The notes: generated by a model from the letters alone, not told the origin. A DNA stretch of 64,000 bases from Cycloclasticus pugetii PS-1 (GCF_000384415.1 NZ_ARVU01000001.1:1364001-1428000); one strand, 5' to 3'. Positions 4,935 through 17,964 are shown, counted from the stretch's first letter. A program made the numbers and translations.

Positions 4935-5174
4935 CTATCGCAGTAGGAAGCCAAGAACGAGGGTTAAAAATATCGAGCGGACTGATCGAGTCAGAAAATC
5001 ATAGAAATTTATTTTTCGGTGCGACCAGGCTTTCCATTGAGTGACAATGACCCAGGCGACCCAGATATAGAGCACCGAATACAAAATCAAAAGAATCGTT
5101 AGGCTAAAGCTACCCATGGGTACACCTAACGTTGCTCCGGTGAAAGCTGCCTCTTGTGATGCTGAGACAGCCAT
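4935..5174 (-). CDS. ICE membrane protein, TIGR03758 family
   Basis: 79-residue protein with two hydrophobic helices (about 20-45 and 62-79). The family is a small inner-membrane component of MPF-G conjugation systems with no known biochemical role. Its ATG shares a base with the stop of the RAQPRD gene (TGATG at 5174), and AAGGAG lies about 10 bases upstream. Confidence 0.83.
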   Translation of the reverse strand: MAVSASQEAAFTGATLGVPMGSFSLTILLILYSVLYIWVAWVIVTQWKAWSHRKINFYDFLTRSVRSIFLTLVLGFLLR

Positions 5175-5467
5175 CAGCGATAATCTCCTTCGATGGGAGG
5201 TAACGACCGAGGCTCGCGTCTCCGACTGTTCAAAATATCTTCAATTCCCTGTTGAATTTGCCCCATGTCACCCTTAAGTTGATCATAATCAACGAGATAA
5301 CGGCCTTGATCGTTGGAATTTTGTTCAGCTGCTTTGATAATCTCTTGGATACTTGTAAGCTCACTGTGTAGCCGTTGAAGAGCCAAGCGCTCTCGATCAG
5401 TAACCGCGTAGGCTGGAAACAGATAAACAATGGTCAAAAAACCAACAGCAGCTATTTTTAGGCGCAT
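5174..5467 (-). CDS. RAQPRD family ICE protein (TIGR01690)
   Basis: 97-residue exported protein: a signal peptide ends near PAYA (residue 22), then a helical region, then the C-terminal signature RREPRSLPPIEGDYR, close to the RAQPRDL...GDYR motif that names the family. Its job in transfer is unknown. The start at 5467 fits the AAAGGGG element 6 bases upstream better than the ATG two codons earlier. It is the first gene of the left secretion-gene block; the next leftward conjugation gene upstream (TIGR03747) lies 9.2 kb away beyond the defence island. Confidence 0.85.
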   Translation of the reverse strand: MRLKIAAVGFLTIVYLFPAYAVTDRERLALQRLHSELTSIQEIIKAAEQNSNDQGRYLVDYDQLKGDMGQIQQGIEDILNSRRREPRSLPPIEGDYR

Positions 5468-5618
5468 AATCATCCCCTTTCGTTAAGGCAATGATCAGGG
5501 ATAATCGAGATTTAGAGCTATGGAAAAGCTTTCTTCAAGACAAGTAAGTTTTCATCAAAAACTACTTCTAGCCAAAACGCACCATGGGTCTAAAAAGTCT
5601 TAGATTTTGGAATATCAA

Positions 5619-6866
5619 ATGGAAAAGCAGCATCTGGAAAGCACATTGGCTACAGTTTACGCCTTACTTGAAGCAGAGGGCATGACCGAAGCAGCAAATT
5701 TTGTCCGCCTATACCCCGCTCGCGCTGAACAGACAGGATACGATAACTGGAATGGCGGTACAGAAATCTGGGAAATATTCTTTGATGTTCCTGCACGAGA
5801 TTATGCTCAGTTAGGCCAACAGAGAGGACAGCTAGAAGAGCAGATTACGTCTCACTTAAAATCGGTCCTAGATGCAGAAACCCAAGATTGGTATTCGGCA
5901 AAAATAGTACCTGCGCGAGAACAACGATCTGACTGGAGAAAAAATCAGACCAGCGTACCACGTCAAGTTCGAACCAATATACTTGATGGCCTGAAGCTAG
6001 AAAATGTAGTGTGGCACGGTTGCCTTGATGGTGTGGAGTTCCTCAGCAGGTTATTTGATCTTAAGAAACTACCTTCCTTTGATAGCCGATTCGATGATGC
6101 GGCAGGCGATATTTGGCAGCACTGTATTAACAATGATGACTGGGAACTCGATTGGGTATTCACGGATGACCGTTTCAGGCTCATCGATGGCCCTTCCGAA
6201 ACATTTCTACGCTTCTTGTGCGAAGTGGTTCATCCGATAGTTCGACCTGATAGAGATGAAGCCCTTAAGCTTGCTTCACAGTTTAATGATCAATTAAGAC
6301 AGGCGGGATGGGAAGTTTATGAGGAGGAGCGAATAGCTGGTCGCCCACGTTTTTCCTATCGCGAGATCTCAAACCACGGATCTCATGCAGTGTCGCGGGC
6401 CCGAAATGTGGCCGATTCGCTGGACGCAGGTTGGATGGCAAAAGAGATAGAACGGCTTGAACATGCAGTTGACCGAGATCCAGCACTTGCCATTGGAACC
6501 GCCAAAGAACTAGTAGAAACCTGCTGCAAGACGATACTTACTAAACGCGGAGTAGCCATAAACAAGTCTGACGATTTGGGTGATTTAACCAAAAAGTTAA
6601 CAAAAGAACTTCAACTCGTGCCTGATGGAATTACTGACGCAGCTAAGGGAGCCGAGAGTATCCGTCTTATTCTGCGAAATCTTACCCAGATAACTAGCAA
6701 TCTAACTCGTCTAAGGGGGCTATATGGTACAGGTCATGGACGAGACGGGCATCACCGTGGATTACAACCTCGTCACGCCAGGCTAGCCGTAGCATCAGCA
6801 GTGGCATTCATAGACTTTGTGACCGAGACCTATCGCTATAGGGAATTGACAAAGGCGAAAGGCTAA
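5619..6866 (+). CDS. Abortive-infection-type protein (AbiJ-NTD3-like plus Abi_C domain)
   Basis: 415 residues. Residues 1-115 match nothing I recognise. About 122-250 resembles the AbiJ N-terminal domain 3 (SRFDDAAGDIWQH, FLRFLCEVVHPIVRPD). About 275-415 is an Abi_C-type domain (TAKELVETCCKTIL, LRGLYGTGHGRDG, ARLAVASAVAFIDF), known from abortive-infection and HEPN-like proteins. It is first of three rightward genes, 26 bases before hamA, so is probably co-transcribed with Hachiman. The ATG at 5619 is preferred over the in-frame TTG four codons upstream. Domain names are from memory of the families; a role as a toxin or sensor of the system is inference. Confidence 0.75.
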   Translation: MEKQHLESTLATVYALLEAEGMTEAANFVRLYPARAEQTGYDNWNGGTEIWEIFFDVPARDYAQLGQQRGQLEEQITSHLKSVLDAETQDWYSAKIVPAREQRSDWRKNQTSVPRQVRTNILDGLKLENVVWHGCLDGVEFLSRLFDLKKLPSFDSRFDDAAGDIWQHCINNDDWELDWVFTDDRFRLIDGPSETFLRFLCEVVHPIVRPDRDEALKLASQFNDQLRQAGWEVYEEERIAGRPRFSYREISNHGSHAVSRARNVADSLDAGWMAKEIERLEHAVDRDPALAIGTAKELVETCCKTILTKRGVAINKSDDLGDLTKKLTKELQLVPDGITDAAKGAESIRLILRNLTQITSNLTRLRGLYGTGHGRDGHHRGLQPRHARLAVASAVAFIDFVTETYRYRELTKAKG

Positions 6867-6892
6867 CGAAAATAATTTTGTGAGAATAGTAG

Positions 6893-7699
6893 ATGGATGA
6901 ACTTGGTTTTGATTTCAACAACGCTATACCCTGGTTTCTTCGCCAACAGGAACACCCTTACGAGCTAGTCAGAATGACTTCTGAGCAAGTCGATGAACTC
7001 CTCACCAATACCGCCGTCGCGGTACGGCGTTGTTACATCACAGATCAAATGCTTACCAAGGCTTCTTCACAATCAGGGCTTTCCAAAGCCGAAATTTTAG
7101 CATCGCGCCTTCCAGACCCTGGTTCAACAATGGCAGGAGACTTTGGCGAGATTCTTGGATACTTCTATCAATCTACAAAAGAGCTACCTAAAAATGCTAT
7201 CGGCGCTAAGAAATGGCGACTTAAGCAAGACAGGAACAAACCAGCCCCAAAGTCCGATGTAGTCCATTTTTTGATGCCTAATCGGCCACACCCAAGCGAG
7301 GAAGATGCACTCTTATGTGCGGAAGTTAAAGTAAAATCGACCAATGGTGCCTCAACGCCAATTGCCTCCGCTATTGATGATTCAGCGAAAGATCAGACCA
7401 GTCGTCTTGCTACAACATTGGTGTGGCTTCGCGAACGCGCGATGACTGAGCCTGAACAGCTAGGGGACGTGGACATTCCCTTGCTAAACCGCTTTATCGA
7501 CCTTGTTGATTATCCACCCATAGCGCGGAGGTTTCACGCAATCGCCGTGATATGTGAAAGCTTAGCTGAACAAGAACTTACGACAGCACCTGACACCTCT
7601 GATGCTAATTTTACACTCCTAGTAATTGTAATCCCTGACCTTAAGCAGACCTACGAGTCCATGTTTTCTTCACTGAACAATACGCTAGTAGAGGAATAA
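6893..7699 (+). CDS. hamA: Hachiman defence protein HamA (DUF1837 nuclease)
   Basis: 268 residues with the DUF1837 pattern: GDFGEILGYF (E86), KWRLKQDRNKPAPKSDVV (D122) and AEVKVKST (E144, K146). These can be read as a PD-(D/E)XK nuclease active site. In studied Hachiman systems HamA is a nuclease kept inactive by HamB and released when HamB meets damaged or phage DNA. It ends 2 bases before hamB, as expected for the paired genes. The catalytic residues are my alignment by eye and should be checked against known HamA proteins. Confidence 0.87.
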   Translation: MDELGFDFNNAIPWFLRQQEHPYELVRMTSEQVDELLTNTAVAVRRCYITDQMLTKASSQSGLSKAEILASRLPDPGSTMAGDFGEILGYFYQSTKELPKNAIGAKKWRLKQDRNKPAPKSDVVHFLMPNRPHPSEEDALLCAEVKVKSTNGASTPIASAIDDSAKDQTSRLATTLVWLRERAMTEPEQLGDVDIPLLNRFIDLVDYPPIARRFHAIAVICESLAEQELTTAPDTSDANFTLLVIVIPDLKQTYESMFSSLNNTLVEE

Positions 7700-7701
7700 G
7701 C

Positions 7702-10680
7702 ATGAGAGAGCTGTTACAAAACTGGATTAACGATGCTGACAACATTCGCCACCTCAGACTCTTTGCAATTCCTCAAACACCTATCAATATTGCGCATGTT
7801 GCAAATCGTCCTCAGGACTTTTATATCTCTCTGGTTGGCGAGCTATTCAGTTGCCTTCATTCACCCGATACATCTCGATCCGACTGGGCTCAGCTGGGCA
7901 ATGCATTTCTACAATTTGCAACGGAAATGTCTGATGATCAGTTAGGTCAATATGGTATTAGCAAAGAAGACTCAATGTTATTTGCAGCAACGTCTTTCTA
8001 TTTCGGCAATTATCCTGCATCAGCATATCTAACAATGCGCAGATGTTCGCGTCCAATGGACAATCAAAGCTTGCTTTCAGGCTGTTTCGATTTTCTAGTT
8101 AGACCTCCGGAACTGCAATCTACAATAGCCTTAGAAGCCCGATCTGCGATTCTCTCCGGGGATCAAGGACAAATAGACACCTTGATTCGAGCCTTAGATG
8201 ACACAGCAAGAAATGCTCTAAATGAAGGCCCAAGAACCTGGGTCGTTGCAACACTACTAAACAGACTAATCCAGAATTTTGGTACTTCCAACCTTCGTGC
8301 AGTACTTCCAGATGGAAACAATGGATTTTGGACGCCACTTGTAAGCTCTTTAGTCAACAGGCAACCCCCTACATGGGAATTTTTCCCGTCACAAATCGAG
8401 GCGATCAACGGAGGGCTACTTTTATCCGGAGATACATTCTCACTACAAATGCCTACAGGTGCAGGAAAAACTACTTTATGTGAAGTTCTGTTGTACTCAC
8501 ATCTAAAGAGACATCCAAATGATGTCGCCGTAATGTTGGTTCCCTACCGGTCACTTGCGTCAGAACTGCGCGGAAGTCTTGTTCCTCGATTGAATGCTCT
8601 AGGTATCGCATCACGTTGCGCCTATGGAGGAACCGTTCCTGTCGGAGACGAACTTCACGAACTTGATAACGTACAAACTATCGTCGCCACTCCAGAAGCC
8701 CTATCGGGATTGCTTGGAGCAGATCCCGACTTTGCAGGACGTATTGGACTAACCATTATTGATGAAGGTCACTTGTTAGATGGAGCCGGACGTGGAATTA
8801 GTCTCGAATTGTTATTGGCCCGTATGAAGGGCCACCCTGGCCGAGCTACCCGATTTGTATTTATATCTGCAATCGTGCCAAACGTCGAGGAAATAAATAC
8901 CTGGTTGGGCGGGGAAGACCAAACCGTGATCCGAAGTACCTACCGACCTGCACTAGCTGAATTCGCGGCATTACAAACGGAAGGCCGAGGGGTCGGCAGA
9001 GTTATCAACTTAAAGATGCACCCGCAAGAGTCAGCTGACAGGCAGTTCATTATTGATGGCTTTCTGGGTCGTAGCGACTTTTTGTATATAAACCCAGAAT
9101 CAGGGCGGCAAAAGACTTATGACTTTAATTCGATCAAAACCCAAGCTATTGCTGCTGCCCGTAAGGTACTTCCAATGGGGTCAACGGCGATTTTCGCTGC
9201 AAATAAGCGAGGAAGCCAAGGAGCTATTGGAATCGCTCAATCCCTTGTAGTACAACTTCAAATTGATCTTCCCATGCCAAGGCCCAATGACTTCTCCAGA
9301 CAGGATAAGTTAATACAGTCTATAGCATATCTTCAGACTGAGTATGGCTCGGACTGGATAGGAACTCAGAGCGTTCAGCATGGCTTTGTTCTTCATCACG
9401 GTGATATTCCTCAAGAGTCCAGAGAAGTTCTTGAAGGACTCATCCGTGATCAGGATGTGAAACTAGTTATTTGTACAAATACGCTTGCAGAGGGTGTCAA
9501 TCTTCCCATTCGCACACTGGTTCTTTATTCAGTTCAGCGTAGATATGGGAATGGCCAAGTGCAAAATATGCTAACTCGCGATATTAAAAATCTTGTGGGA
9601 AGAGCTGGTAGAGCAGGAGCAAATACCAAAGGTCTTTTGATCTGCGCAAATCCAGATCAGTGGGAACTTGTTCAACCTGTTGCTATGCAAAGTCCAGGCG
9701 AGCCAGTTACAGGCTCTCTTTACAGTTTAATTGAGTTAATGACAGGTTTTATTTCTCGCAACAATATCGCTTTGGACAATCAATTTTTGGAAAATAACAC
9801 CATAATCCACCCGCTAGTTGATGGCATTGATTCAACTTTAATGGAACTGTTGTCTGATGAAGTTAATGAAGACGAGTTTATTGAGTCCGCTAAACAGCTT
9901 GCGGCGCAGACATTTGCAGCTGCACAGCTTACCAATATCCCTTCCGACAACCTACGTAAAATATTCTCGCTTCGCGCACAACGTATTGTAGCGCTTCAAT
10001 CATCTGGAAGGGCGGCCTGGGCACGTGAAACAGGCGCAAAGATCCGTTTGATCGACAGTGTCGAACAGACTTTACTTCCTATGCGCGACAACTGGAGCGA
10101 GGACATAGAACAGATAGTTGATGATATTCGAACCTCTGTTTTTCAATGGGCATGGACACATAGAGAACTTCGAGAAACTGTGAAAGACTGCTTTCGTTTA
10201 GGTGAAAATGACGATGTTGAGAACTATAGGGAACGTTTTTTTGCAATAGCACAACTCTGGATGTCTGGCATGAGATTTAGAGATATCGCAGAAACGCTAA
10301 CGTTACAGATGGATGATCTACTCGGCATATATACCACCGGAATTTCTTTCTCACTCCAAACATTAGTCGAACAAGGAATCAGCCTATTGGCCAAGCGGCT
10401 AGAGATAGAAGAAATCGAGATTTCGGAAGGAGTCCGACTGTTTCCCGAAAACCTGAGGTTTGGCGTTCCAAATAACGCTTCAAGAATACTTGCAGCAACC
10501 GGTGTACGCCACCGCAGTGCTTGCGTTGCACTTGGAACTGCTCTGGAGAATAACAATCTTGCAGGAAACGACAATGAAACTCGACTAGCAGCTGCCCAAT
10601 CACTGCGAACCTATGCAGAACAATGGCGCTCGACCTTGGGTGAGCTGGTCTACCAGAATACACTTTCAGACCTCGCATAA
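7702..10680 (+). CDS. hamB: Hachiman defence helicase HamB (superfamily 2, DExH type)
   Basis: 992 residues. Helicase motifs in order: a Q-like residue (Q231), Walker A MPTGAGKTT (250-258), motif Ia LVPYRSLASEL (279-289), motif II IIDEGHLL (DEGH at 354-357), motif III FISAIVPN (388-394), motif V TNTLAEGVNLP (about 591-601) and motif VI LVGRAGRAG (about 631-639). This is a Ski2/Brr2-like SF2 helicase, the HamB class. N-terminal 230 residues are helical and unassigned; the C-terminal third is the accessory region. Immediate coupling to hamA makes the call firm. It converges on the 1283-residue nuclease-NTPase gene, 72 bases beyond its stop. Confidence 0.88.
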   Translation: MRELLQNWINDADNIRHLRLFAIPQTPINIAHVANRPQDFYISLVGELFSCLHSPDTSRSDWAQLGNAFLQFATEMSDDQLGQYGISKEDSMLFAATSFYFGNYPASAYLTMRRCSRPMDNQSLLSGCFDFLVRPPELQSTIALEARSAILSGDQGQIDTLIRALDDTARNALNEGPRTWVVATLLNRLIQNFGTSNLRAVLPDGNNGFWTPLVSSLVNRQPPTWEFFPSQIEAINGGLLLSGDTFSLQMPTGAGKTTLCEVLLYSHLKRHPNDVAVMLVPYRSLASELRGSLVPRLNALGIASRCAYGGTVPVGDELHELDNVQTIVATPEALSGLLGADPDFAGRIGLTIIDEGHLLDGAGRGISLELLLARMKGHPGRATRFVFISAIVPNVEEINTWLGGEDQTVIRSTYRPALAEFAALQTEGRGVGRVINLKMHPQESADRQFIIDGFLGRSDFLYINPESGRQKTYDFNSIKTQAIAAARKVLPMGSTAIFAANKRGSQGAIGIAQSLVVQLQIDLPMPRPNDFSRQDKLIQSIAYLQTEYGSDWIGTQSVQHGFVLHHGDIPQESREVLEGLIRDQDVKLVICTNTLAEGVNLPIRTLVLYSVQRRYGNGQVQNMLTRDIKNLVGRAGRAGANTKGLLICANPDQWELVQPVAMQSPGEPVTGSLYSLIELMTGFISRNNIALDNQFLENNTIIHPLVDGIDSTLMELLSDEVNEDEFIESAKQLAAQTFAAAQLTNIPSDNLRKIFSLRAQRIVALQSSGRAAWARETGAKIRLIDSVEQTLLPMRDNWSEDIEQIVDDIRTSVFQWAWTHRELRETVKDCFRLGENDDVENYRERFFAIAQLWMSGMRFRDIAETLTLQMDDLLGIYTTGISFSLQTLVEQGISLLAKRLEIEEIEISEGVRLFPENLRFGVPNNASRILAATGVRHRSACVALGTALENNNLAGNDNETRLAAAQSLRTYAEQWRSTLGELVYQNTLSDLA

Positions 10681-10752: not shown

Positions 10753-13700
10753 TCAGAATAATCGACTACCCAATTCATGATTGACCAACCCAATGCGCAC
10801 TGCCGCAATGTAGTTCATGGCTTCATCTATTTCGCCATTCAGGGCATTTATGCTTGAAGCAGAAAGATTTGGACAAAAAGAATCTTCTTTAATCTCACCA
10901 TCTTGCTGCTTAGCGACACAATCACGTAACTCTTCAAGAACTGCTAAGGCATCGTAGACAATATCGTTATCATCCTCTTCGATATAACGCTTAAACTTCT
11001 CTTGAATTCGATCACAAGTCTCAACCGCCCGATCAAACTCATCCCCTTCATCCTGCTTCAAATTTTGTAGATCACATACATTTATCATGGATGAAATAAT
11101 CCCCAATGAGCCAATCCCTTGATCAAACTCTTTTAATAAGAGCCCATCGAATGACTTTCCAGCAATAGCTTGATTTAGGGCCTCGCTCTTATTAACCAAT
11201 ATATGTGGATTTTCAAATAAATAACTAAAGCCAAATTGTGGGATATAAGTGCCATCGATTTTCGGCATCAAATAGACTTGGCGGCTAGTATTTTTATGCT
11301 TTTTAACAACCGATAGAATCTCATCAAAAGAATGAAAATATGACTCTACCGTTTCCACATCTATTGCGATTAACAGCTCATCACTTGGCCATACCCCTCT
11401 GTCATTTCCACCCTCTCGAATAACTAATATCTCTATCTCCAAACCAAGATTAGTGATGCCCTTTTGAATTGCCGCTTTCTCTTTCTCCAGCCTACCTTTC
11501 AGCTTTTCTTTCGCGTTTGCCGAACAGAGCTGTAAAGCCTTTCCTCTAGATGCCTTTTTTGAAAGAGAAGTAACTGCCTCAACGAAACGGCTGTTTTGAG
11601 CACACTCGCTAAGAATCCATCTCAGCATACCTAATAACGCTTCAATACTCGAAGCAACAGGGCTAACATCCCAGTCAAGTACTGCCCAATATGAAGCGTC
11701 ACTCGCCTTTTTTACCTGTTCACAGAGGCTCGACGAAAAAGCCGACAACGCGCCATAGTTGTTTTCTCTATTGTTAAGACGGGGAATCAAATTCCCACAG
11801 ATACCAGCAATCAACGATGAAACCGGCTCCGTAAACTCCACACCACCTTCAATAGGATGTGGACCATAGTTAATAGACAGTTTTTGGTGCATAACATATC
11901 GGTTTGCCGCATTCGCCGTCTGCTCAATAGCAGCCGAATGCTTCTTAATAAATACACCTTCCTTACCACGGCACCATGCATCCACGTAGCTTTTTAGGTA
12001 TCTATCCGCATTCACTAACTGCTCTTTCATCAACTTGGCATAATCAGTCTCCGTTGGTGACAGTGATTGATTCGCCACCAACGCAATGAAGTTTTGGTTC
12101 CAGCGTTGAACAGCGAATGAAGGTAAATTTTTTCGAGGGATTGCCTTTGAAGCGATTGGGTAGTCACCGTATTGTAATGCATTACCGTCCCCTCCAATTG
12201 CCCTCGCCTCTACTTTGCCTGCATCGGGAGCTAAACTCACCAACTTGTCACACAACTGTATAACTGATTGTTCTGCATCGTCAGTCACGTCATCACTAAC
12301 AACGAGATAATCAGCTGAGACAACTTTTTCACCATCATCGTTAACGAAAACGACTGGCTTAGAAATCCAAGGAGTTACCGAATAATATTTGTCTAGGACA
12401 GTCCCCTCTCCCCCGAGGCTAGCAATGATCGACTGCGCCAGCTCAACATCAACTGCGGAGGCCACTTCCAATAATGGGCATATCTGGTCAAAGTCTCCGG
12501 AGATATTTCCACCAAATTGTAATTTCTTGTGTTCTGTAGCCCCTATAGAAGGAATGGGTCCCATGCTGGAAAACAACGCTACGAGCTCTTCAGTCTCTTT
12601 AACCTCATCAAGTTGGAACGAATCGTCGAGTACATCCAGAAGTTTTTTCCTATAATCCACGCACGCAATATTAGAAAACTCTTTCACAGCAAGATTCACT
12701 TGGCGCATAGCCATTGAATCGCCTGATGGCATTTCAGCACCAGCACACGCCATCATCGTCGCCATTGGCCAGTGAGCACTATCCAACGACTGTTTTTCCA
12801 GAATGGCTATCCATGACTTAGTCATTTCCTGAAGCGATACGATCCCCATTCCTGTCAACGCTAATGCCCATTCGGTTGCGGTAGGGGTTTCTTGTAATCT
12901 TCCAACAATCGACTGAATTAACGACTCACCATGATCGACGTTTACTAACTTCTGTATAACAACCGGTAGTGCCTCACTCACAACACATTGAATTGCCAAA
13001 TTATTGGATTCTTCCTTTAAAAAAACCAATTCATCATGGCTATGTAAAAACAGTGCTTCTGAACGAATATCATGAATACCAGCAATAACCCCTGGAGCCG
13101 TATAACGAATCAGGTGCTCATCCAGCAACCGACCTAAAGCGCTTCCTAGGGAATTTTGATTGAGACCGAGAACAGTAGATAACCGATTAACCTGTAATGC
13201 CCCACCAACTCTGAATGCAGCAGAACAGACTCTGACTACGGCCAGTTCTTCATTTCTCGCTTGTTTTTTTCTATCAGTGATCTGTCCTTTTATTACGTCT
13301 TCTAACCTTTTTCCCTGAGTGAGGATATGCGTATATTCAAGCAGTAAACCTTGACTCAGCCGATAAGGCTCCTTCCAATAAACCCACGTCGTCCTTTCTT
13401 CTTGTTGTAATTTCTCCCATAGGCCAACAGCAAATTTTTCATCAAGCGCAGAATCAATAAGACTTACATGACTAATGTCACCAAGAACGGCAACATCTTC
13501 CTGCCGGACAGAGCCTATAAAGAACACTCCTGGTTTTGTGCGCGTTTCTCTAGTCAAAGCCTGAAATAGCGATGCGTCAAATTTTCCAACATCATCTAGC
13601 ACGATGCCTACGGGGCGCATTAAGGAGGGTTGAAGTGCTTCTACTAAATTTAATATGGCCGCTATATCACCACTTTGTGACATTGTGGAGACACGAAACC

Positions 13701-14604
13701 ACCTCATATAATGTGATAGTTCATGAACACTCATCCACTGTAGGGCTGACTTTCCCGAACCAGATGGACCAACAACTAAGACACTGCGCGTTTCCTGAAT
13801 TTTCTCTACAACTCTCGCAACCGAATCAGGCCTATCCATGACCAATCCAGCTGCAATATGTCCCGGCTGAACATCAACACCGCCGTAAAACTCAGAGTCC
13901 ATGAGCGGATCGTCAAACGTAACAGGGAAACAGACACCTCGCTCTATAGCTTCATTGATTGACGACGGATCGATACTCTTAAGAAGACGAGAGACTAAAG
14001 CTTCAATTGTTTGGACAGATATTCGAGATCGGAGGTTGTAAGGCTTACGGGCGTTTTCTGAAGCCACAAAGCCACAGAATGCCAGAACGCCATGAAAGAT
14101 TATCTCGGCTATGCCCGAAACAACACCCAAACGATCTTCCAGCTCACCCACCGCCAACTGCTTGGGGTCTGGGATAACTAGCGATCCGCTTTCATTCTTC
14201 GATTCTTGATCAACAAAACCATCCCACTTAAGAAAATCACCTACAGCTGCCGGTTTCTCTAGAAATAGCCAGCGCCCATCAATAACCATCCCTGCGGCCC
14301 CAAGGGTTTTAGCACCCTCATTTAACTTTTGTTCATAGCCCTTAATTTCAGAGTTAGTAAACGGTGGCCTATGAGCACCCCGTGATTTCACTTGGATCAG
14401 TGTTAGGTTATCTTCTTGCTCGATAACAATATCATCAAATCCCTCAGGAACGACTACACCCGATGAGAGCCTATTACTCCAAATAGAAATAGCTAACAAC
14501 GAGGCTACAGCGTCCTGAAACCTAAAGCCTCGGCCAGCCCATGCTCCAGATCGGCTATCTTTCCAGAACTCTTCTAAAACTGGTAATTTCTTATCTTTAT
14601 CCAT
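10753..14604 (-). CDS. Large nuclease-NTPase fusion, putative defence protein (Cap4-like N-terminus, STAND-like P-loop)
   Basis: 1283 residues. N-terminus: GRGFRFQ (25-30), DDIVIEQ (57-63) and LIQVKS (69-74), the arrangement of Cap4/DUF4297-type PD-(D/E)XK nucleases. Middle: Walker A GPSGSGKS (279-286), Walker B VGIVLDDVG (332-340) and a sensor-like FFIGSVRQED (361-370), then helical, winged-helix-like sequence. The remaining about 800 residues have no recognisable repeats. The plan (nuclease, STAND NTPase, long sensor) is that of Avs-type antiphage sensors, but I cannot match it to a named Avs class. It lies in the same ICE cargo slot as Hachiman, with no adjacent partner on its strand. The start has only a weak, distant GGAG. 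A function in defence is inference. Confidence 0.7.
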   Translation of the reverse strand: MDKDKKLPVLEEFWKDSRSGAWAGRGFRFQDAVASLLAISIWSNRLSSGVVVPEGFDDIVIEQEDNLTLIQVKSRGAHRPPFTNSEIKGYEQKLNEGAKTLGAAGMVIDGRWLFLEKPAAVGDFLKWDGFVDQESKNESGSLVIPDPKQLAVGELEDRLGVVSGIAEIIFHGVLAFCGFVASENARKPYNLRSRISVQTIEALVSRLLKSIDPSSINEAIERGVCFPVTFDDPLMDSEFYGGVDVQPGHIAAGLVMDRPDSVARVVEKIQETRSVLVVGPSGSGKSALQWMSVHELSHYMRWFRVSTMSQSGDIAAILNLVEALQPSLMRPVGIVLDDVGKFDASLFQALTRETRTKPGVFFIGSVRQEDVAVLGDISHVSLIDSALDEKFAVGLWEKLQQEERTTWVYWKEPYRLSQGLLLEYTHILTQGKRLEDVIKGQITDRKKQARNEELAVVRVCSAAFRVGGALQVNRLSTVLGLNQNSLGSALGRLLDEHLIRYTAPGVIAGIHDIRSEALFLHSHDELVFLKEESNNLAIQCVVSEALPVVIQKLVNVDHGESLIQSIVGRLQETPTATEWALALTGMGIVSLQEMTKSWIAILEKQSLDSAHWPMATMMACAGAEMPSGDSMAMRQVNLAVKEFSNIACVDYRKKLLDVLDDSFQLDEVKETEELVALFSSMGPIPSIGATEHKKLQFGGNISGDFDQICPLLEVASAVDVELAQSIIASLGGEGTVLDKYYSVTPWISKPVVFVNDDGEKVVSADYLVVSDDVTDDAEQSVIQLCDKLVSLAPDAGKVEARAIGGDGNALQYGDYPIASKAIPRKNLPSFAVQRWNQNFIALVANQSLSPTETDYAKLMKEQLVNADRYLKSYVDAWCRGKEGVFIKKHSAAIEQTANAANRYVMHQKLSINYGPHPIEGGVEFTEPVSSLIAGICGNLIPRLNNRENNYGALSAFSSSLCEQVKKASDASYWAVLDWDVSPVASSIEALLGMLRWILSECAQNSRFVEAVTSLSKKASRGKALQLCSANAKEKLKGRLEKEKAAIQKGITNLGLEIEILVIREGGNDRGVWPSDELLIAIDVETVESYFHSFDEILSVVKKHKNTSRQVYLMPKIDGTYIPQFGFSYLFENPHILVNKSEALNQAIAGKSFDGLLLKEFDQGIGSLGIISSMINVCDLQNLKQDEGDEFDRAVETCDRIQEKFKRYIEEDDNDIVYDALAVLEELRDCVAKQQDGEIKEDSFCPNLSASSINALNGEIDEAMNYIAAVRIGLVNHELGSRLF

Positions 14605-14663
14605 GTACAGCTATTCCATTAGCTCCTGCACTACTTGCAAGAAGCGCTAGTTTAGAAATAGGA

Positions 14664-15395
14664 TCAAAAATACTTTTTCAGCCGCTCGAAAGCAACACGC
14701 GTCGCCAAGCCTAACAGAAAGGCAAAAGGCAGGATAACGGCCACCGGATTAATGCTGAACGGCAGGCTGATATAGACCACACAAGCAGCTACAAATGAAG
14801 GTACGACGGATCGTCTGGCCAGATTGAAGACATTACTGCTCTCGCGCCCCCCGCCCCACCGCCTGAGGTCGCGTTCCACCAGCCCGTCAACACCACCCAC
14901 GAGCGCCGCAACGAAGAAGATCGGCAGTGAAAATAGGATGAGCGCTAAACGGGTGACGAATGTTTGTGTAACGTAGGTGGATGCTTGAAGATAGTCATCG
15001 AATCGTTGATATAAGCCATATCCCCATGCCTGCAACGATGAAAAAAAACTGGCGTCAGGAACATCAGGCGCGTTATGCAGAAGCGTTTTAATCCAGGATT
15101 GACGGGATACCCATCCTACTGCCTCGCCCGTTAACGCAATAATATCCTTCCTGATAGCTAACGATTGATCATAGAGCTGCTGGTTGAGATAAGCCTGGTC
15201 AGCCGCCAGAACGGCTTTTGCGTGGTCTGCCCCTTGTTCTGGCCAGAACCAGATCATGCCTAGCCATTCAATGATGATAGACAGCATTAAACTGATCACC
15301 AGCCAAACAACTAACTGAACCAGTGCAGAAAACAGTTGGCCGATCAGGCCGGGTTCTTTTCTTCTGGGGGGCTGATACTGCTGTGACTTGGCCAT
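14664..15395 (-). CDS. ICE membrane protein, TIGR03747 family
   Basis: 243-residue inner-membrane protein with an N-terminal helix pair (about 17-45) and two or three more segments in the C-terminal half (about 147-170, 205-233). The family lies directly downstream of TraD in MPF-G ICEs, here 17 bases after it. Its role in transfer is not defined. It is the last conjugation gene before the defence island interrupts the series. Confidence 0.85.
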   Translation of the reverse strand: MAKSQQYQPPRRKEPGLIGQLFSALVQLVVWLVISLMLSIIIEWLGMIWFWPEQGADHAKAVLAADQAYLNQQLYDQSLAIRKDIIALTGEAVGWVSRQSWIKTLLHNAPDVPDASFFSSLQAWGYGLYQRFDDYLQASTYVTQTFVTRLALILFSLPIFFVAALVGGVDGLVERDLRRWGGGRESSNVFNLARRSVVPSFVAACVVYISLPFSINPVAVILPFAFLLGLATRVAFERLKKYF

Positions 15396-15412
15396 GGGCT
15401 TATCAGCCTTGC

Positions 15413-17482
15413 CTATCGACCATAATAGCTCGGCCAGTCCACGACTGACGTATAACTGCGCCGCATATGCTGGAGCATGTCGCCCAAATCGTCGGGCAGC
15501 TCCTGATCATCCATTTTGGATGGCATGGGGATGCGGATTTTCCACAGTTCACTGCCCCTAAGCAGGACGAATGCCTGCCCTTTGGGGAGCGCCACAATAT
15601 CGGCGGGGGAGATCATAGGCACACGGCTGATGCTCACCCGATCCTGATTATTGGAGGTAAAGCCAATGCCGGCAGAGGTATCGACATTGTCGGTGACGCC
15701 GGAAACCGCCATGATTTCACTGACGCTGACTTCTGGCAGCTGCTTGGTGAACATTTCACAGGTCGCCACCTCCTTCACACCCATGATCAGCATGGTGCCG
15801 ATGTTGCCAGCCAACTGCCCGGCTTTGGCTTCACTACCCAGTTCGGCAATCGGGTCGCTCCAGGTCTGGGTGTACAGATTAAGTTGGTAGCCAGCCCCGC
15901 CACTTTTATTGATCAACGTCTTGAACTGCGGCCCGATCAAGTCGGAGAATTCGTCCCCGTGGATCACAATATCCGGTGGTTTCCTGGCCTGCTCGTTCGT
16001 ATTGCTTGGTGCTATACCGTGCTTATAGATATGACCTGCCAGACTGGTCAGGTCACTGAACATGGAAGCGCCCACCGCACTGGCCACCTCTGGGTCGGTG
16101 AGAGCATCCAGCCCCACATAGACGACAGCGTTGGATCTAATCGCTTGCGCCCACTCCAACACCGGACGTTGATCGTCGGTTTTCGTCTTATCAGGTGCCA
16201 GGATAGAAGCGATGTTGCCCGTGGTGAGCTTTTCCAGGAAGGGCTTGATGGACACCGTGATTTTCAAAAAATACTCACGGTCATAACGAAAAGCAGACAT
16301 CAGCCCTTCTAACACCTGATCGAAAGTCGCATGAGTATTGAGATAGCGCACCATTGCCAGTGCCTCAGGGTCTTTGCCCTGATCGATCCTTGGCAGCGAC
16401 TTTATGTTAATACTGTCTTGCAGCTCCCCCAGCTCATCCTGCCAATCCTCCGGACCATGTTCAGCCAACCAATGGCGACCATACAGAATCAGCAGAGCAT
16501 CGATATCGGTGATATAGCGACGAATTTTGAGGTAATCCGGTATTTCACCCATCGCCACTAGCGCCACGGCGATAACATTGATGAATTGCCAGGCAAATTC
16601 TTTAAACGCACTGGCCTCACCTTCGCCCGGTAGCTGGCTGGCGATTCGCGTCGCAACTTCTGTAATCCGCGAAAAAGAACCAATGGCGTTGTAGCGGGCG
16701 CTCAGCTCGGGATAGCCCAGATGAAAGATAATGAGCTGACGCCCTGCTTTCTGGGATTCAACATAGATGCGCTTTAGATAATCGGCATCTCCTTTCGGGT
16801 CTAACACAATGACACAGTTATTGCCGCGTCGAATATCCTGGGTCGTCAGCACTTCGGCCAGCCGGGTTTTGCCATGGCGAGTTCGGGCGATCACCACCAT
16901 ATGCCCGACCCGGTCACTGAGCGGCATTGTGGCATTGGTTTCCCCTCTGATCCCGACACCGTGTATGACAGCATCGCCCCCGATGGCAGGCGGGGGACGG
17001 ACGGGATTCAGAGGGGAATCTAGTGCGGTCCATCGCATGATCGTTCGCAACAGGGGCGTATGCTCCCATTCGATCTCTTTGCGACGAACCCATTGTTTGA
17101 TGGCGCTGGGCTGCAGATAACGTTCAGCGCGTTTATCGCGGGCAGCGTAGAGTCGTTCGGTGTGTGTCTGGTTCCAGCGAAAGCCTCGCCCTAAGAACAA
17201 CACCGACTGACTCACCGGCACTTGGGATGATGACATGACATAGCGCGGGCTGCGCTTGAGATGGCGCTGATATTGAATCACTCGCCAGGCCTGGCGACCA
17301 CGCCATACACCGACCCCGCCCAGACACCCGGCGCTGAACAGGGCAACCGATGGGGTCATCATCAAAGTGTGTGGTGCAGCTAACACGATCCCCGCACAAC
17401 TCAACGCCACTATCGCCGAAGACAGTTCCACAGGGGGACGTAATAACACTTCGACTTCATACCGGTCGGTCACTGCTCCCAA
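15413..17482 (-). CDS. traD: Type IV coupling protein TraD (TIGR03743 family)
   Basis: 689 residues. An N-terminal membrane region (about 20-58) is followed by a soluble AAA-like domain with a Walker A variant ARTRHGKT (199-206), VIVLDPKGDADY (224-235), and Walker B-like DIVIHGDEFSDLI. Coupling proteins bring the relaxase-DNA complex to the secretion channel at the inner membrane and hydrolyse ATP. The Walker A lacks the usual leading glycine. The start overlaps the end of the TIGR03765 gene by 13 bases. Neighbours and length agree with the family. Confidence 0.92.
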   Translation of the reverse strand: MGAVTDRYEVEVLLRPPVELSSAIVALSCAGIVLAAPHTLMMTPSVALFSAGCLGGVGVWRGRQAWRVIQYQRHLKRSPRYVMSSSQVPVSQSVLFLGRGFRWNQTHTERLYAARDKRAERYLQPSAIKQWVRRKEIEWEHTPLLRTIMRWTALDSPLNPVRPPPAIGGDAVIHGVGIRGETNATMPLSDRVGHMVVIARTRHGKTRLAEVLTTQDIRRGNNCVIVLDPKGDADYLKRIYVESQKAGRQLIIFHLGYPELSARYNAIGSFSRITEVATRIASQLPGEGEASAFKEFAWQFINVIAVALVAMGEIPDYLKIRRYITDIDALLILYGRHWLAEHGPEDWQDELGELQDSINIKSLPRIDQGKDPEALAMVRYLNTHATFDQVLEGLMSAFRYDREYFLKITVSIKPFLEKLTTGNIASILAPDKTKTDDQRPVLEWAQAIRSNAVVYVGLDALTDPEVASAVGASMFSDLTSLAGHIYKHGIAPSNTNEQARKPPDIVIHGDEFSDLIGPQFKTLINKSGGAGYQLNLYTQTWSDPIAELGSEAKAGQLAGNIGTMLIMGVKEVATCEMFTKQLPEVSVSEIMAVSGVTDNVDTSAGIGFTSNNQDRVSISRVPMISPADIVALPKGQAFVLLRGSELWKIRIPMPSKMDDQELPDDLGDMLQHMRRSYTSVVDWPSYYGR

Positions 17483-17964
17483 CCCTCTTTTGATAGCAAG
17501 ATCGGGTAGTGGCTCAAACCCAGCTTAGTGGCGAAACCCTCCGCTGATGCGGGCACCAGACGAAGCCCTTCCGCGATAGCCAAAACCGCCTCAATCTCCT
17601 GACGATCCTTCGCCTCAACCAGAAGGCCAACGGCTCCGATACGGATAAGCTGCTCGCGCTTTTTGGCCAGCCAGTCTCGTGATTTCTGATCAGACCCCAC
17701 CAAAAACAAGGGCCGCTGCAAATAACGTAATGCTTTTGGCGTGACTGTGACCTTACCCGGCTGCATTGAGGGTGTGGTGATCGGCAGCTTGAATGGCGAT
17801 TGATGATTCGCGTCCTGAGTGGTGGCCTTTTCTTGTGGTGCTCGTTTCGGCAGATAGGGTTCAAGCGGTAAGGTATCGCCTGAGTCATAAATTACGGTTA
17901 ATGGTTCTCTGGCGTGAGCCTCTAAACAAAACAACAGGCACAGCAGTCCGAATAGCCCTCGCAT
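17470..17964 (-). CDS. ICE protein, TIGR03765 family (PFL_4695-like)
   Basis: 164 residues from MRGLFGLLCLLFCLEAHA, a signal peptide ending about residue 18, so the protein is periplasmic. The remaining sequence (RPLFLVGSDQKSRDWLAKK, EGWEQ at the end) matches the TIGR03765 family found just upstream of TraD in this ICE class; no enzymatic motif is visible. The start at 17964 shares a base with the stop of the transglycosylase gene (TGATG), which is better than the longer frame running 36 codons upstream inside that gene. Confidence 0.83.
   Translation of the reverse strand: MRGLFGLLCLLFCLEAHAREPLTVIYDSGDTLPLEPYLPKRAPQEKATTQDANHQSPFKLPITTPSMQPGKVTVTPKALRYLQRPLFLVGSDQKSRDWLAKKREQLIRIGAVGLLVEAKDRQEIEAVLAIAEGLRLVPASAEGFATKLGLSHYPILLSKEGWEQ

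Follow-up and report, generated by a model that had tools for sequence, protein, structure and literature searches.

The question raised by this locus is what kind of protein is encoded, next to a Hachiman defence system of Cycloclasticus pugetii PS-1, by a 1283-residue open reading frame joining a nuclease to a P-loop NTPase, and whether it belongs to one of the known Avs classes. As a case study, we considered the whole 64,000-nucleotide stretch of DNA around it (the window; Table 1), taken from a genome of one 2.38 Mb contig in which the gene is present as a single copy. The frame is intact, starts with ATG, has an in-frame stop three codons 5' of this start and occupies exactly the interval of the original prediction. 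The motifs named there are also in place (PEGFDDI at residues 53-59, QVKS at 71-74, GPSGSGKS at 279-286 and VLDDVG at 335-340) and are not chance strings, because E54, D58, K73 and the Walker A residues 280-282 and 284-286 are invariant in an alignment of 14 family members that have 17-28% overall identity.

Table 1. Coordinates, in the window, of the nuclease-NTPase gene, its predicted regions and the genes of the surrounding ICE cargo slot
Feature	Coordinates	Strand	Basis
Whole gene, 1283 aa: nuclease, STAND-like NTPase, C-terminal region	10753..14604	-	ORF; full-length relatives
Predicted Cap4/DUF4297/LmuA-type PD-(D/E)xK nuclease domain, residues ~18-216; core motif E54, D58, Q71, K73	13957..14553	-	Pfam PF14130 18-88; PADLOC LmuA; structural matches 9c1m, 6wam, 9nxx; conservation
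STAND-like P-loop NTPase core, residues ~236-384	13453..13899	-	PF25199 nSTAND_NTPase5 238-372; EfAvs5 best structural match
Walker A GPSGSGKS, residues 279-286	13747..13770	-	280-282 and 284-286 invariant
Walker B GIVLDD, residues 333-338	13591..13608	-	D337 invariant
SVRQED, residues 365-370, candidate sensor or arginine-finger motif (putative role)	13495..13512	-	R367, E369 invariant
Helical lid and winged-helix-like region, residues 385-520 (SxGLLLEY; GxHxxRS)	13045..13452	-	Predicted secondary structure; E423, Y424, H511, R514 invariant
C-terminal candidate sensor, residues 521-1283	10756..13044	-	No repeats; no confident fold
TIGR03747 ICE membrane protein, upstream slot boundary	14664..15395	-	NCBIfam model
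RAQPRD-family ICE protein (TIGR01690), downstream slot boundary	5174..5473	-	Profile match
HamB, Hachiman helicase, slot neighbour	7702..10680	+	PADLOC
HamA, Hachiman nuclease, slot neighbour	6893..7699	+	PADLOC, Pfam
AbiJ-like protein (AbiJ_NTD3 + Abi_C), slot neighbour	5607..6866	+	Pfam
TraD	15413-17482

Relatives were collected from plasmids by tblastn, which returned nine records, seven of them with at least 80% coverage; these come from Agrobacterium pAt, Marinovum, Ruegeria and Caulobacter and, where the matches are shorter, from Sphingopyxis and Arthrobacter. A scan of genome contigs with the single sequence found nothing, its six exact peptides being too specific, and the same kind of scan with alignment queries gave at least three relatives (Kiloniellaceae, Terasakiella and Kribbella). 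Further members were found in genomes G261, G748, G806 and G599, the pieces detected in G261 by single-sequence search belonging to one full-length protein. Both plasmids and chromosomes of other Pseudomonadota carry relatives, and more distant ones occur in Actinomycetota; ten Pseudomonadota members are 22-28% identical to the window protein along its full length, against 17-20% for two actinobacterial members. The family is rare and patchily distributed: matches were present in 6 of 398 genomes of a phylum sample (window genome included, some partial only), in 4 of 385 genomes of one class (two as fragments only) and in 7 of 301 genomes of the order (in five through the core alone), and a search of 17 congeneric genomes gave none. 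No relative was found in viral contigs scanned with several alignments, nor any match in E. coli genomes at the DNA level. One locus (L039, genome G329) carries member fragments in opposite orientations (5976-7427, plus strand, and 7917-8423, minus strand), apparently a rearranged broken copy.

Pfam, conserved residues and the predicted fold together identify the N-terminus as a predicted nuclease of the Cap4/DUF4297/LmuA type. The PF14130 Cap4_nuclease match (E 5e-7) scores 30.6 bits, above the curated cut-off of 26.2; PADLOC names this domain, as LmuA/HamA-like, and no other part of the protein, and searches of NCBIfam and PHROGs returned nothing specific and no informative PHROG. Compared with PDB sequences, the family profile picks up LmuA (the nuclease part of 9ux7) and generic P-loops, with a weak match to Anti-bacteriophage protein A (8zue, E 0.12). 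Across the 14 members E54, G55, D58 and K73 are invariant and Q71 is kept in 13, with D in the remaining one; in this member (L037 8251-12003, genome G599) the motif reads DAKS and the lysine of QxK is retained. We predicted the structure of residues 1-600 from four sequences, obtaining a model of moderate confidence (pLDDT 69, pTM 0.42) with a nuclease domain, a P-loop core, a helical lid and a winged-helix-like element. Its mixed alpha/beta nuclease domain, in which the core stretches 63-69 and 76-78 have pLDDT under 50, aligns in VIA-align with HerA-DUF4297 (9c1m; Z 13.0, 166 aligned, rmsd 3.9, model residues 21-209), Cap4 (6wam; Z 12.2, 159 aligned, rmsd 4.0) and LmuA (9nxx; Z 12.0, 173 aligned, rmsd 3.6). 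The Cap4-like nuclease originally predicted is thus upheld by profile, invariant residues and predicted structure, and its extent is revised, the domain being larger in the model than first noted.

Profiles, invariant residues and predicted structure likewise bear out the STAND-like P-loop of the original prediction, and we keep the wording "STAND-like" because the PF25199 nSTAND_NTPase5 match of the window protein (E 1.9e-6) scores 28.2 bits, below the cut-off of 34, with 9 of 11 aligned members matching this model at E <= 0.01. Walker residues P280-G282, G284-S286 and D337 are invariant in the 14 members, position 338 being D, E or N, as are R367, E369, E423, Y424, H511 and R514 further along. 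A GxP motif is typical of classic STAND proteins; none is found around SxGLLLEY (417-424), a stretch with pLDDT under 50 in which the equivalent position is uncertain. In the moderate-confidence model a lid and a winged helix appear to follow the NTPase, as in solved STAND proteins. VIA-align ranked EfAvs5 (9jap) first (Z 14.8, 311 aligned, rmsd 16.0, model residues 212-593), and for Avs3 (8dgc) the alignment spans model residues 14-599 (Z 12.2, 442 aligned, rmsd 22.2); the high rmsd of the Avs alignments probably reflects the arrangement of the domains. Since many AAA+ proteins reach 11-14 through the P-loop alone, similarity in this part is generic, and in plain Foldseek SAMD9 and generic AAA+ chains are high and EfAvs5 is at rank 16. 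The telling points of the predicted model are instead that Avs5 comes first with an alignment running far past the P-loop, that Avs3 spans both domains and that the right nuclease family is selected by the ~216 N-terminal residues.

The C-terminal part had been noted as having no recognised repeat pattern, in contrast to the TPR-type sensors of Avs proteins, and profile self-comparison detected no internal repeats. An AlphaFold model of residues 500-1283, made from three sequences, was poor (pLDDT 58); it had no Foldseek match at E <= 0.001, and VIA gave only middling matches, the best (Z 9.6) being a helical bundle, which we take as uninformative. This model, too weak to show whether TPR-like repeats are present, hints at helices with two small beta-alpha segments (~751-803 and ~1058-1116). 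A Pfam GAT match at 1171-1232 (E 0.005), seen in one member only, was taken as chance. Averaged over pairs of members, identity is 45% for the nuclease, 44% for the NTPase, 43% for the lid and winged-helix region and 20-30% for four C-terminal blocks, and such a slow core with a fast C-terminus fits the expectation for effector and switch versus sensor. Core and C-terminal divergence increase together (Spearman 0.87), so that within the family the C-terminus has been inherited with the core and not freely swapped. Five order-level relatives, which have the family core and another C-terminus, form a sister subfamily (L030, L031, L032, L033 and L034, in genomes G427, G437, G928, G883 and G856), of 1380-1414 aa in four cases, the L031 copy being open for only 709 aa. 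By hhalign this subfamily matches the window family with a probability of 99.4 (E 9e-22), the core aligning far better than the rest; L030 and L032-L034, together with L040 and L041, further variants in which the nuclease motif is present, share the nuclease-NTPase-winged-helix core and have a different, longer C-terminus. Effector and switch are constant and the C-terminus varies between subfamilies, as the sensor reading predicts.

The order effector, STAND, C-terminal region of Avs proteins is thus present in one polypeptide with a putative sensor, and this identical three-part order, with residues 1-600 finding Avs3 and EfAvs5 among their closest structural counterparts, would also be expected of a divergent member of an existing class (Avs1-5) that shares with its class the fold of the sensor and the ligand, be it terminase, portal or another. 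We consider this explanation unlikely. No PADLOC Avs model matched the protein at E <= 10, whereas a true Avs2 encoded near one relative, the positive control, run for Avs2 alone, scored 2.7e-291; profile comparison with this Avs2 gave a probability of 7%, no solved Avs was found in the profile search of PDB sequences, and no repeats were detected in the C-terminus. Judged by sequence, the protein is not an Avs2. The original statement that it fits no known Avs class therefore stands with a positive control for Avs2, and for Avs1, 3, 4 and 5 it reflects the PADLOC null result at E <= 10; solved Avs2 and Avs4 chains are absent among the matches listed for the N-terminal model, an absence to which we give no weight. 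The protein resembles Avs3 in having a Cap4-type nuclease at the N-terminus, a STAND NTPase and a large C-terminal region, but it is shorter, with 1283 aa where the 8dgc chain has 2028 residues, and it differs from both Avs2 and Avs3 in its C-terminus without recognisable repeats. EfAvs5 is the best structural match for the NTPase and the region that follows, but Avs5 carries a Sir2 NADase effector (PMC12931631) and the window protein a PD-(D/E)xK nuclease. By profile and predicted fold, the nuclease domain belongs to the family common to DUF4297-HerA, LmuA (Lamassu) and Cap4 (CBASS), but in those systems the nuclease works with HerA or an SMC-like protein as a separate partner, or with a SAVED domain as second-messenger receptor, in place of which the window protein has a fused STAND-like switch; LmuA lies beside the SMC-like LmuB, and the slot studied here contains no LmuB, its neighbours being Hachiman, AbiJ and tra genes.

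No description of the family, nor any experiment on one of its members, was found in the open papers searched, subscription papers and most preprints being outside this coverage. The term "undescribed" thus holds provisionally for the defence-gene libraries and open papers searched, one relative being already tagged by automatic annotation as "dsDNA nuclease domain-containing protein". We provisionally regard the protein as representing a separate family of known Avs-like design, of which the defence libraries searched name the nuclease only. That it is a separate bacterial NLR-like nuclease family in the fuller sense, with its own NTPase clade (near nSTAND5), a non-repeat mixed alpha/beta C-terminal sensor and an invader ligand unlike those of Avs1-5, is a tentative proposal to which we give slightly less than an even chance.

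The genomic setting agrees with the proposed ICE cargo slot next to Hachiman. The window holds a TOL/PFGI-type ICE (TraD, TIGR03747, cargo, RAQPRD, TIGR03745, 03750, 03746, 03749 and 03752), in which the cargo, an AbiJ-like gene, HamA, HamB and the nuclease-NTPase gene, lies between TIGR03747 and RAQPRD; the slot matches GI-Hotspot 8, an ICE defence hotspot flanked by traD and RAQPRD (PMC12629846). The nuclease-NTPase gene is convergent with HamB and begins 59 nt after TIGR03747 on the same strand. The AbiJ-like gene immediately precedes HamA, with which it shares a strand, and may form one operon with Hachiman. In a sister ICE of the same genus (L063, genome G401), the transfer proteins are 83-98% identical and RAQPRD 62%, and the slot cargo differs; in two other elements the slot is nearly empty. 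Encoded in the L063 slot (12703-17649) are a C5-cytosine methyltransferase, a protein of 816 aa that weakly matches MzaB and a response-regulator-like protein of 281 aa, possibly another defence system.

Around the relatives, Gabija (GajB, GajA being cut by the contig end) and Lit adjoin L014, a full Avs2 is near L005, DRT1 adjoins L038, AbiE is near L004 and a mads_3-type ATPase is near L035; PADLOC names none of the neighbours of L015. Defence association therefore recurs in several unrelated settings. The members at L003 and L036 are overlapped by the gene of an HNH-type NACHT-NCAB2 protein (HNH-type effector, NACHT, HEAT and NCAB2; L003 11854-16230 and L036 3580-7989), in two different hosts. 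We rejected this gene as an obligatory operon partner: the Ruegeria relative of the same clade (L004/L072) lacks it, and the neighbours of other members differ. In several contexts the family gene stands alone. Near the Agrobacterium relative, L002 13707-16373 encodes a SMEK-domain protein with a short-Argonaute-type REase-PNTD N-terminus and a segment resembling the Avs2 NTPase.

The same surroundings bear on whether the main target could be incoming plasmids or rival conjugative elements rather than phage, the protein then acting as an ICE exclusion system. Members are carried by ICEs and conjugative plasmids, and the short distance to TIGR03747 means that the gene could be read with the tra operon; however, the neighbours of relatives are mostly anti-phage systems and some relatives lie on large chromosomal contigs outside this ICE slot, so that we find this explanation somewhat less likely still than Avs membership. 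A non-immune factor for element maintenance (e.g. ICE DNA processing), a role that the location inside an ICE would suit and in which a nuclease with an ATPase could act on DNA generally, is improbable and was set aside, because slot cargo differs between close sister elements and is nearly absent from others, so that transfer does not need this gene, and because relatives occur outside this ICE slot and the C-terminus is fast-evolving.

We therefore favour, with a probability of roughly 0.7, a stand-alone sensor-nuclease of STAND/NLR design that kills or arrests infected cells by DNA degradation. The C-terminal ~760 residues would recognise an invader-derived ligand; on binding, the central NTPase, with its STAND-like fold and intact Walker motifs, would take up ATP and oligomerise, gathering the N-terminal nuclease domains as in Avs3 and DUF4297-HerA, and the clustered nucleases would cut double-stranded DNA of phage and host, cell death or growth arrest ending the infection. 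Beyond domain identification, these steps are drawn from Avs1-4, with nucleases that cut the genomes of phage and host (PMC12931631), and from DUF4297-HerA, in which host and phage dsDNA is degraded in abortive infection (PMC11291478). Detection of a phage protein can reasonably be inferred from architecture and neighbours, and other targets (plasmids, competing ICEs) would suit the sensor-nuclease nearly as well. As cargo of the TraD/RAQPRD hotspot, it would protect both the element and its host.

The NLR immune receptors of plants and animals have their bacterial counterparts in the STAND nucleases. By retaining effector and switch with a C-terminus without known fold, this family would widen the set of sensors in which phage or plasmid ligands may be found; it is a single gene, easy to test, and it travels on transferable elements with other defence systems.
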